Positions 6,525 through 58,649 of a DNA stretch of 64,000 nt are shown piece by piece. Where the stretch lies: assembly GCF_900110945.1 (NCBI RefSeq), contig NZ_FOFL01000002.1, positions 372,001 through 436,000 of the forward strand, written 5' to 3'. The position numbers were made by a program, and so were the translations under genes. Below the pieces are notes generated by a model, which worked only from the letters and a program-made list of their open reading frames with translations, was not told where the DNA came from and ran no database searches. The DNA is from Devosia sp. YR412. Lineage in GTDB: Bacteria > Pseudomonadota > Alphaproteobacteria > Rhizobiales > Devosiaceae. Within the stretch, counting starts at the first letter, position 1; the number at the start of each line of letters is the position of its first letter.

Positions 6525-7361
6525 TTAGTAGACGTAGACGATCAGCTGGCTACCCGACTGCTTGACGGCCAGCACGCGGTCGGCACCGTAGCTGGTGCGG
6601 CTCAGCGAGGCATTGACCAGCGAGTCAGACTGAACTGCAGAACGCAGGGCCGCGCCGAGGTTCGAGCCACTGAGCTGCGAGGTCAGCCACTGGCGGACGT
6701 CGGAGCAGACGGCGATCGGCTGGACCTTGACGCCGGAAGCGCGGCTCCACGAGGAGTCAAAGCGCGTCGACTGCAACAGGCGGGTCACCTGATTGGCCGG
6801 CATGCCATCGCAGGCAGCAGCAACACCGCGGCTATTATTGCCATTAATCCCGTTGTTGCCGTTGACGCCATTGTTCCCGTTGTTGGCAGTCACGCCATTG
6901 CCATTGTTGCCGTTGCGGCCATTGGTACCGGGGGTCCCAGGTGCACCGGGCGTACCAGGCGTGCTGCCGGGCAGGCCGATGCTGAGGTTGACCAGATTAT
7001 CGCCGCCAAGACCCACATTGGTCGTCAGCAGATTGCTGCCGCCGCCGACACCGATGTCGGCCGTTGCGGTGCCGCTGAGCACGTCTGCACCAACACCCAG
7101 GCCACCATTGTTGTTGCTGACACTGACATCAGCGATCGGAGCCGAGCTACCGCCAAGATTGACGTCGAGAATATTGCCGCCACCGCCGCCGAGACCAACA
7201 TTGACCAGACCCTGATTTGAAGCAGCGCCAGAGTCAACGTTAAGTACAGAACCAAGACCGTCACCACCCAAGAGGCCCCCAAGCAAGTCTTGGGCGTGTA
7301 CGGGAATACCCGTAGTGGCAAAAAGGACACCGGCAAGCACTACGGCGATATAAGACTTCAT
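6525..7361 (-). CDS. secreted collagen-like, glycine/asparagine-rich protein
   Basis: 278 residues. Residues 1-23 are a signal peptide (cleavage after VHA). Residues 25-130 are rich in Gly, Leu, Val and Asn with repeated VGLGG, VNLGG and SIGLPG blocks. Residues 132-178 are a collagen-like run of G-x-y triplets (GTPGAPGTPGTNG) that grades into GNNG/NGNNG repeats. Residues 184-278 form a compact C-terminal domain with two cysteines (C184, C219) and an IVYVY end. No known enzyme domain is seen; a surface or matrix role is likely but unproven. The ATG at 7361 follows a GAGGAGA ribosome binding site. Seven GANTC sites lie 70-188 bases upstream. Confidence 0.8.
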   Translation of the reverse strand: MKSYIAVVLAGVLFATTGIPVHAQDLLGGLLGGDGLGSVLNVDSGAASNQGLVNVGLGGGGGNILDVNLGGSSAPIADVSVSNNNGGLGVGADVLSGTATADIGVGGGSNLLTTNVGLGGDNLVNLSIGLPGSTPGTPGAPGTPGTNGRNGNNGNGVTANNGNNGVNGNNGINGNNSRGVAAACDGMPANQVTRLLQSTRFDSSWSRASGVKVQPIAVCSDVRQWLTSQLSGSNLGAALRSAVQSDSLVNASLSRTSYGADRVLAVKQSGSQLIVYVY

Positions 7362-7430
7362 AGCATCTCTCCTCGGACGAGCCCCAATTGGCTGCAATCA
7401 AGATACGTCTTCTTCTCAGATATGTTTCAA

Positions 7431-7561: not shown

Positions 7562-7709
7562 AAAAAGGGCGCGAAACCGAAGTTTCGCGCCCCCACCGGA
7601 GACACCACAAAGGAGCGTCAGCCTCTGCAGCCGTCTACCGATCGGATGGCACCCCTGGAGGATTGGGCGCCAAAACCTGTCCGGATCATTTTCATCGTAT
7701 CCGGTTCGG
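7562..7709 (-). ncRNA. candidate sigma-EcfG-dependent small RNA with a CCUCC loop
   Basis: A probable transcript of about 148 nt. It starts 7-8 bases after a perfect GGAAC-N16-CGTT promoter (7716-7740) and ends at a hairpin with a cUUCGg tetraloop and T-run (7567-7592). Two more hairpins are visible: CCGGAT/ATCCGG (7681-7704), and GGCGCCC/GGGTGCC (7648-7671), which exposes the loop AATCCTCCAG, an anti-Shine-Dalgarno CCUCC. Small RNAs with such C-rich loops are known in alphaproteobacteria, including the stress RNA GsrN of Caulobacter; homology to any of them is not shown. The transcript could instead encode a 25-residue peptide (ATG at 7695), but that start lies only about 14 nt from the predicted 5' end. 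Confidence 0.55.
7567..7592 (-). terminator. rho-independent terminator with cUUCGg tetraloop
   Basis: Eleven-base-pair perfect stem, GGGCGCGAAAC (7567-7577) with GTTTCGCGCCC (7582-7592). On the minus strand the loop reads TTCG closed by C-G, and a run of five T follows (complement of 7562-7566). It terminates a minus-strand transcript, not the collagen-like gene. Confidence 0.85.
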
Positions 7710-7715
7710 TCGAAT

Positions 7716-7740
7716 AACGAGGCTAGGGATCAAGGGTTCC
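7716..7740 (-). promoter_or_regulatory. sigma-EcfG promoter motif before the candidate sRNA
   Basis: On the minus strand GGAAC (7740-7736) and CGTT (7719-7716) are separated by exactly 16 bases, matching the GGAAC-N16/17-CGTT consensus of the alphaproteobacterial general stress sigma factor. The next strong terminator is about 150 bases downstream. Confidence 0.6.
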
Positions 7741-16203: not shown

Positions 16204-17913
16204 ATGCCCGCTCGCATTTCTCGCGCCACCTATGCCGACATGTATGGTCCCACGACCGGCGACAAGGTGCGCCTGGCCGATACGGAGCTCTTCATCGAGG
16301 TCGAGAAGGATTTCACCACCTATGGCGAAGAGGTGAAGTTTGGCGGCGGCAAGGTCATCCGTGACGGCATGGGCCAGTCGCAGCGCACGCGCGCCGAGGG
16401 CGCCGTCGATACCGTCATCACCAATGCGCTGGTCGTCGATGTCACCGGCATCTTCAAGGCCGACGTCGGCCTCAAGGATGGCCGCATCCACGCCATCGGC
16501 AAGGCCGGCAATCCCGACACCCAGTCGGGCGTCACCATCATCATCGGCCCCTCTACCGAAGTCATCGCCGGCGAGGGCCGCATCCTGACCGCCGGCGGCA
16601 TGGACGCCCATATCCACTTCATCGCGCCCCAGCAGATCGAGGAAGCGCTTATGAGCGGCGTCACCACCATGCTGGGCGGCGGCACTGGCCCGGCCCATGG
16701 CACGCTGGCCACCACCTGCACCGGCGCCTGGCATATCCAGCGCATGATCGAGAGCTTCGACGGCTTCCCGATGAACCTGGCGCTGGCCGGCAAGGGCAAT
16801 GCCTCCCGCCCCGCTCCGCTGGCTGAAATGATCCTGGCCGGCGCATCCTGCCTCAAGCTGCATGAGGACTGGGGCACCACCCCAGCCACCATCGACAATT
16901 GCCTCTCGGTCGCCGACGACTATGACGTCCAGGTGATGATCCATACCGATACGCTCAATGAGAGCGGCTTCGTCGAAGACACCATCGCCGCCTTCAAGGG
17001 CCGCACCATTCACGCCTTCCACACCGAAGGCGCCGGCGGCGGCCATGCCCCCGACATCCTGCGTGTCGCCGGCCTCCCTAATGTCATCCCGAGCTCGACC
17101 AACCCGACCCGGCCCTACACGATCAACACCATTGCCGAGCATCTCGACATGCTCATGGTCTGCCACCATCTCTCGCCCAACATTCCGGAAGACGTCGCCT
17201 TCGCCGAAAGCCGCATCCGCAAGGAAACCATTGCCGCCGAGGATATCCTCCACGACATGGGCGCCCTTTCGGTCATCTCGTCCGACAGCCAGGCCATGGG
17301 CCGCGTCGGCGAAGTGCTGATCCGCTGCTGGCAGACCGCCGACAAGATGAAACGCCAGCGCGGCAAGCTGGCCCAGGAAATCGGCGACAACGACAATTTC
17401 CGCGTCAAGCGCTACATCGCCAAATACACCATCAACCCCGCCATCGCCCACGGCATGAGCCAGCACATCGGCTCGATCGAGCCCGGCAAGCGCGCCGACC
17501 TGGTGCTCTGGCACCCGGCGTTTTTCGGCGTGAAGCCGGAAATGGTGCTGCTCGGCGGCTCCATCGCCGCCGCCCCGATGGGTGATCCCAATGCCTCGAT
17601 CCCGACGCCGCAGCCGATGCACTACCGCCCGATGTTCGCCAGCTTCGGCAAGCTGCTGACCAATTCCTCGGTCACCTTCGTCTCCCAGGCCGCCTATGAT
17701 GACGGCCTGCGTGGCAAGCTCGGGGTCGCCAAGCAGATGCTGCCGGTCACCAATACCCGCGGCGGCATCGGCAAGCATTCGATGATCCACAATTCGGCGA
17801 CGCCCGACATTCAGGTCGATCCGGAAACCTACGAAGTCCATGCCGATGGCGAATTGCTCACCTGCGAGCCCGCCACCGTCCTCCCCATGGCGCAGCGCTA
17901 CTTCCTGTTCTAG
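16204..17913 (+). CDS. ureC: urease alpha subunit (catalytic)
   Basis: 569 residues, the nickel-containing catalytic subunit that hydrolyses urea to ammonia and carbamate in the cytoplasm. All active-site residues are visible: nickel ligands H136 and H138 (DAHIH), the carbamylated lysine K218 (CLKLHEDWG), H247 (IHTD), H273 ([13 protein letters not shown]), D361 (SSDSQAMGR), and the flap C320-H321 (MVCHHL). The length is normal. A GGAGG ribosome binding site precedes the ATG. It should be fully active once UreD/E/F/G load nickel. Confidence 0.98.
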
Positions 17914-50345: not shown

Positions 50346-50370
50346 AACGTATCAAAGCCCTGGCAGTTCC
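50346..50370 (-). promoter_or_regulatory. sigma-EcfG promoter motif before the lipoprotein gene
   Basis: On the minus strand GGAAC (50370-50366) and CGTT (50349-50346) are separated by 16 bases; transcription would start near 50338, about 19 nt before ATG 50319. Confidence 0.65.
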
Positions 50371-58624: not shown

Positions 58625-58649
58625 GGAACGAAAACAAAAAGCCCGCGTT
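58625..58649 (+). promoter_or_regulatory. sigma-EcfG promoter motif before the one-helix protein gene
   Basis: GGAAC (58625-58629) and CGTT (58646-58649) are separated by 16 bases, with predicted start near 58657 and a 27-nt leader to ATG 58684. This is the cleanest of the five sites in the window. Confidence 0.7.

Follow-up and report, generated by a model that had tools for sequence, protein, structure and literature searches.

Under stress, PhyR titrates NepR and thereby frees sigma-EcfG; to our knowledge, few of the small RNAs (sRNAs) belonging to this sigma factor have known targets.

Tien, Fiebig and Crosson 2018 (PMC5869019) describe GsrN of Caulobacter crescentus as a sigma-T/EcfG-dependent sRNA of about 100 nt that acts at the 5′ end of the katG mRNA as an activator, with a C-rich 5′ loop as its tested seed and BLASTn matches confined to Caulobacteraceae. 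In Sinorhizobium meliloti, sigma-E2 motifs were predicted upstream of 23 sRNAs, with expression evidence for eight intergenic regions (PMC3616915), and the Rhizobiales RNAs SmelA075 and SmelA099 consist of three or four hairpins, every one of which carries a similar CCUCCUCCC anti-Shine-Dalgarno loop (PMC3927594).

Here we describe an sRNA locus in a 64,000-nucleotide stretch of Devosia DNA, the whole of which is referred to as the window. The best reading of this locus, and a probable one on the sequence evidence set out below, is a sigma-EcfG sRNA of the Devosia stress response that would occlude GGAGCGUC sites on mRNAs by pairing through the loop of its third hairpin, SL3. By analogy, GsrN is the closest working model for this RNA: both have a general stress sigma promoter, a single sRNA, an intrinsic terminator and exposed pairing loops, and part of the Devosia homologues share a C-rich 5′ loop. 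The Devosia RNA differs in its length of about 148 nt, in the position of its invariant loop in the third hairpin, and in its predicted repression at the Shine-Dalgarno sequence. In Caulobacteraceae, no part of GsrN is better conserved than its 5′ C-rich loop (PMC5869019); in Devosia it is the SL3 loop that is conserved instead. Proximity to ecfG-nepR-phyR, typical of the GsrN family but not of C. crescentus, is not seen in the source genome of the window (3.83 Mb), where NepR, PhyR and an ECF sigma factor are encoded side by side about 234 kb from the sRNA (sRNA at 379.6 kb and nepR at 614.1 kb of contig C3). An approximate GsrN query, a 14-mer derived from published target sites, occurs at 12 places in 385 genomes of the class, none of which has a GGAAC-CGTT promoter in the upstream 90 bases or a match to the covariance model of the Devosia RNA (R1, described below). 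A GsrN loop shared with SL3 was also considered, in the form UUGACGCUC inferred from one predicted target, GAGCGUCAACGA, and was dropped because the other listed target sites indicate a different GsrN sequence.

The two remaining systems are looser parallels. The RpoE2 (EcfG)-dependent sRNAs of S. meliloti are likewise alphaproteobacterial, with predicted sigma-E2 promoter motifs. SmelA075 and SmelA099 resemble the Devosia RNA in having hairpin loops complementary to Shine-Dalgarno sequences; they differ from it in that the Devosia RNA carries CCUCC in one loop, and in part of the homologues only, so that the CCUCCUCCC-loop arrangement is not found. No description of the Devosia RNA appears among the literature titles listed for Devosia/EcfG small RNAs and the octamer.

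Locus, Promoter and Terminator

On the minus strand of the window, a sigma-EcfG-type promoter of the form GGAAC-N16-CGTT, GGAACCCTTGATCCCTAGCCTCGTT, occupies positions 7740 to 7716, with GGAAC at −35 (7740-7736) and CGTT at −10 (7719-7716). An RNA of about 148 nt would run from a putative start site at 7709 to position 7562, consistent with its BLAST homologues and covariance model, and would end in an intrinsic terminator (7592-7556), recognised by its fold and conserved pairing, with an 11-bp stem, GGGCGCGAAAC-UUCG-GUUUCGCGCCC, and a U-run. Three hairpins are predicted ahead of the terminator: the 5′ hairpin SL1 (CCGGAT...ATCCGG, 7704-7681), which is variable in sequence; SL2 (TGGCGCCC-AATCCTCCAG-GGGTGCCA, 7672-7647), whose CCUCC loop (7661-7657) is exposed in some homologues only; and the long SL3 (7642-7595), which is the conserved core, supported by covariation and pairing. 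The SL3 loop CUGACGCU (7621-7614) and the octamer GACGCUCC (7619-7612) together form the proposed target-recognition site (7621-7612). The fold of 154 nt of the locus has a z-score of −4.25, and none of 200 shuffled sequences folds as well.

The preliminary description of this DNA had reported the minus-strand motif followed 150 bases later by an 11-bp terminator, with a predicted RNA of 148 nt, and this arrangement is confirmed. The exact promoter motif lies 84 to 129 bases 5′ of GACGCTCC in 61 of 64 homologous loci; in the other three, AGTT replaces CGTT (two loci) or a contig end cuts the sequence (one locus). An alignment of 62 leaders at N16 spacing has GGAAC in 62 and CGTT in 60, letters that are fixed because the sites were chosen by that motif, with a spacer that varies nonetheless. 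Across the genome, GGAAC-N16/17-CGTT is present in 58 copies versus 62 of the reversed control, which is not significant; within the window, seven EcfG-type motifs (N15-18) are found versus 1.55 expected, and 0 of 100 shuffles reach this number. Conservation of the promoter together with the RNA is stronger evidence than motif frequency. The promoter of the sigma-EcfG regulon is kept in Devosia, where EcfG, NepR and PhyR are all encoded, and GGAAC-N16/17-CGTT is present in 19 of 19 general stress response (GSR) stretches scanned, out of 23 in total.

In 39 of 63 sRNA loci (shuffled mean 0.4), for example L002, L003 and L006, the 50 bases upstream of GGAAC contain a box ATCACA. Boxes of this type read CGATCACA in 28 of the 63 and are mostly located at −30 or about −19, positions roughly one helical turn apart. 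The box looks like an activator site; it is absent upstream of the window's own sRNA promoter. EcfG-type sites also lie elsewhere in the window: one at 50346-50370 on the minus strand, 26 bases before a 69-aa ORF that appears lipoprotein-like by eye, and one at 58625-58649 on the plus strand, 34 bases before a 127-aa ORF. Both of these small ORFs have a Shine-Dalgarno sequence and could plausibly belong to the stress regulon as well. Rfam family RF02514 (5′ ureB sRNA) scores 107.7 bits at 16356-16645 on the minus strand; this family is antisense to the urease gene of Helicobacter, and the match may therefore simply stem from conservation of the urease coding sequence on the opposite strand, not from an RNA gene.

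Distribution of the Small RNA

BLAST with a 103-base query (E up to 0.001) recovers the sRNA from 65 of the 75 genus genomes, and with a 241-base query from 0 of 24 genomes in other families of the order. Duplicate loci were merged and L070, cut by a contig end, was excluded to give a set of 63 homologous transcripts, 49 of which make up a sequence-only alignment (A1). A covariance search of related genomes, suggested in the preliminary description, recovers the RNA as well: model R1, built from 49 sRNA loci including the window's own, matches 69 of the 75 genus genomes, matches that are not independent because the model was built from 49 of those loci, and the match in G017 is without the SL3 loop. 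The window RNA itself scores 129 bits with R1, whose underlying alignment includes that RNA.

R1 also matches the sister genera, in which GACGCTCC is present in 21 of 21 strong loci examined and SL2 appears by eye to be short or absent. The −35 element of these loci (L084 and L135-L154) is GCAAC in 14 of 21; GGAAC and GAAAC occur once each, and in the other five the element was not recognised. The phyR gene retains GGAAC in all four sister-genus genomes checked. Judging from these sequences, GCAAC possibly marks a sigma factor switch or a weaker promoter.

Across 297 genomes of the order, R1 matches 32 outside the family. The loci examined from 22 of these 32 genomes, with L099 and nine others left out, are all terminators without GACGCTCC and were rejected, so that R1 found no loop-bearing match there, a point of difference from the RpoE2-dependent sRNAs of S. 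meliloti. Weak matches within the family (G387, G372, G017, G406, G394 and a second match in G365) are also without GACGCTCC and were discarded. A pattern scan of genome contigs returned 58 stretches, 40 of which are confirmed by the model (36 of 36 in one set and four of 22 in the other: L241, L218, L221 and L242), with the other 18 taken as chance; 37 of the 40 belong to Devosia. No Rfam 15 family exceeds its gathering threshold for the sRNA, and none of the matches at E up to 5 is credible, the best being RF00489 with 14.3 bits against a threshold of 50.

Structure and the Conserved Loop of SL3

SL2, SL3 and the terminator comprise 38 base pairs, which are 88.3% paired across the 49 aligned homologues. 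Cells changed on both sides number 114 versus 45.3 in shuffles that ignore relatedness, with 0 of 500 shuffles reaching 114, and pairs changed on both sides number 18 of 38 versus a shuffle mean of 14.4, with 14 of 500 reaching 18; sliding the partner columns by one to three positions gives at most 64 double-changed cells. The SL2 stem covaries, with seven of eight pairs double-changed and 75.5% of cells paired, and the corresponding values are six of 19 pairs and 86.9% for SL3 and five of 11 pairs and 100% of scored cells for the terminator. Together, BLAST range, promoter conservation and covariation support the earlier proposal of an independent, intrinsically terminated sRNA with a putative sigma-EcfG promoter.

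The exposed CCUCC loop had been put forward as the key feature of this RNA, a view that the homologues do not bear out. Upstream of SL3, 33 of 63 homologues contain CCUCC, which is predicted to be unpaired in only 17 of 63, the window's among them, whereas the YUGACGCU loop of SL3 is kept in 62 of 63, the exception being CCGACGCU. The variants of the SL3 loop are CTGACGCT (45 homologues), TTGACGCT (17) and CCGACGCT (one), predicted to be unpaired in 61 of 63, and GACGCUCC of SL3 is the exact complement of the ribosome-binding octamer GGAGCGUC. A sigma-EcfG sRNA could instead act mainly by the CCUCC of SL2 as a general anti-Shine-Dalgarno RNA, in line with the preliminary description and in the manner of GsrN or the rhizobial RNAs with CCUCCUCCC loops, with SL3 as a stability element. 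This would fit the 17 homologues with a predicted unpaired CCUCC, the window's included, and GsrN, whose tested seed on katG is a C-rich loop (PMC5869019). We regard this as unlikely, since an exposed CCUCC is absent from 46 of the 63 homologues while the SL3 loop is nearly invariant, and a pure stability hairpin would have no need of a fixed loop. The CCUCC of SL2 may nevertheless provide a second contact in some clades.

Candidate Targets

Candidate targets were sought in nine Devosia genomes as GGAGCGTCA-N0-9-ATG, the complement of the SL3 loop before a start codon, which is found at 63 places versus three for the reversed control. Sixteen variants of the form GGAGCNNCA-N0-9-ATG are found at 842 places in the same genomes, versus 355 for their reversed control (composition uncorrected); as their mean is 52.6 per variant against 63 for the octamer, the latter shows no clear genome-wide excess. 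A GlsB/YeaQ-like protein (PF04226) recurs behind the octamer in four of the nine genomes. Recurring in two of nine each are a DUF883-like protein whose gene has an EcfG-type promoter (DUF883_C at 26.1 bits, just below the cut-off of 27), a 110-aa protein and a 53-aa membrane protein, both without a Pfam match, a transposase-like frame, and a 297-aa protein. Among the proteins seen once is DUF1206, likewise behind an EcfG-type promoter. Because the hypothesis originated in this search, the subsequent tests on leaders weigh more. The transposase-like frame, recognised by eye, has GGAGCGTCATCATG at its start in L257 (G009) and L308 (G007), so a mobile element may carry the tag as well. In the source genome, 41 of 58 EcfG-type sites were examined and 23 of these precede an ORF with a Shine-Dalgarno sequence; the octamer is present in one of the 23 and is therefore not a regulon-wide tag. 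Among the 4-mers that follow GGAG in stretches of that genome, CGTC ranks first, yet with only six of 216.

GlsB-like leaders were taken from the best match in 70 of 72 matching genomes, with G017, G095 and second copies left out. In the main paralogue, GGAGCGTC is found in 41 of 58 leaders and the exact octamer is absent from 17, while it is found in none of nine leaders of the second paralogue and in none of the three GlsB-like leaders from genomes with neither sRNA nor NepR. In 39 of 40 leaders, the octamer is followed by A or G at the position that would face U. When 39 sequence clusters were compared (each with at least ten distinct members in the collected loci, many being spurious frames), a shared GGAG+4-mer was most frequent in the GlsB cluster (24 of 30), followed by the urtA-like cluster (nine of 23). 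Octamers are present in GlsB-like leaders of 40 of 56 genomes with the sRNA versus one of five without it (Fisher P 0.036, phylogeny ignored), the exception being G096 (74% complete), in which the sRNA was not found and the octamer is kept. Mean predicted duplex energies are −19.5 kcal/mol for GlsB-like leaders, −17.0 for the second paralogue and −14.3 for shuffled sequences, a modelled quantity that separates the groups weakly. By eye, the main GlsB-like leaders (L319-L388) mostly have TTGCAACC...ACTTAT-like promoter elements, unlike the EcfG consensus, so that the sRNA would there couple two regulons. In L378, L379, L382 and L383, the second paralogue is instead preceded by GGAAC...CGTT-like promoters, also by eye.

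Leaders of the DUF883-like gene were compared with same-regulon controls in ten 20-kb GSR neighbourhoods. The gene is preceded by GGAGCGTC in five of the ten genomes, of which two belong to sister genera, and the starts of the DUF883-like proteins are about 46-67% identical to that of the source genome. Octamers are missing from this gene in G066, G071 and G080, though the sRNA is present, and in the sister-genus genomes G377 and G404. Among the control leaders of the same stretches, EcfG-promoted phyR has nine different 4-mers in ten genomes, DUF1328 seven in seven, and a third gene (MNWNQ...) four in four, so that any one 4-mer is common to at most two of the ten.

A search for NepR was extended to 27 further genomes. 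Neither a NepR match nor the sRNA is found in the genus genomes G021, G078 and G084 (92, 99 and 78% complete), whereas NepR is present and the sRNA was not found in G087, G088, G096 and G017 (91, 90, 74 and 62% complete) and in G129, G399, G366, G406 and G394, which belong to other genera of the family; conversely, G398 (71% complete) has the sRNA and no NepR match. The occurrence of sRNA and NepR coincides imperfectly.

It is also conceivable that the invariant SL3 loop of a sigma-EcfG sRNA binds a protein or another RNA, with the octamer matches coincidental or otherwise caused. Loop invariance fits protein binding too, and the octamer is without clear genome-wide enrichment. The exact octamer is nevertheless kept at two unrelated genes, where control leaders do not keep their 4-mers, and is missing in the three genomes with neither sRNA nor NepR, which leaves this explanation unlikely.

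Neighbouring Genes and Coding Potential

Open frames beside the sRNA differ among the Devosia loci (compared as frames only, unannotated). An association with urtA or nutrient genes had been suggested from the window; given these differing neighbours, and a urtA-like cluster whose most frequent 4-mer after GGAG is GTAA (nine of 23), it finds no support. The RNA could in principle serve the collagen-like gene downstream of it (window 6525-7397) in cis, as a leader or an attenuator, and by eye some loci do have similar same-strand frames after the RNA. In L004, L005, L027, L030 and L076, however, the next long frame is convergent and 0 to 11 nt away, other loci have a different type of frame downstream, and 100% of the cells scored in the terminator helix are paired; a leader function was rejected as very improbable on the grounds that neighbouring frames vary and several are convergent.

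A coding-frame reading of the locus was rejected too. A start codon is found at the ATG position of the 25-codon frame in one of 49 aligned homologues, and the distance from the SL3 loop to the terminator covers all three classes modulo 3 (25, 19 and five of 49). Frames that run across SL3 stay open in 39 and 35 of the 49, as is frequent in G+C-rich sequence. The preliminary description had reasoned that a 25- or 53-codon frame kept without the hairpins would speak against an RNA; for the 25-codon frame the opposite was found, with the start codon lost and the stems covarying. A chance promoter and terminator or a small coding gene, with no functional RNA, would agree with a genome-wide motif as frequent as its control, and is hardly credible in view of the conservation, the covariation and the loss of the frame.

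Proposed Role in the Stress Response

In the preferred reading, of an sRNA that occludes GGAGCGUC sites through SL3, freed sigma-EcfG would transcribe the sRNA from GGAAC-N16-CGTT, a dependence that the promoter suggests. The sRNA is predicted to fold into four hairpins, with SL3 displaying the near-invariant YUGACGCU, and GACGCUCC would pair with GGAGCGUC, which constitutes the Shine-Dalgarno sequence and spacer of selected mRNAs. The chief candidate targets would be those of the GlsB/YeaQ-like (PF04226) membrane protein and of the DUF883-like protein with its sigma-EcfG-type promoter. Pairing in trans at this position would be expected to block ribosome binding and so repress translation, perhaps with a second contact by the CCUCC of SL2 in some clades. 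Since one sigma factor would make both the DUF883-like mRNA and its repressor, the arrangement would be an incoherent feed-forward loop.

A broader reading, to which we give somewhat less than even weight, is that Devosia and its sister genera have an EcfG-made RNA whose fixed loop reads an GGAGCGUC tag on unrelated stress mRNAs, some of them EcfG-driven. Its members would be the GlsB/YeaQ-like and DUF883-like mRNAs and perhaps also those of DUF1206, DUF3309 and a small membrane protein. If true, this would represent an octamer-coded post-transcriptional brake in the stress response, lost where the stress system is lost. The Devosia sRNA offers a second EcfG system, with deep conservation, a defined candidate seed and two candidate targets open to test. 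It suggests a stress response in alphaproteobacteria that restrains some of its own products post-transcriptionally.
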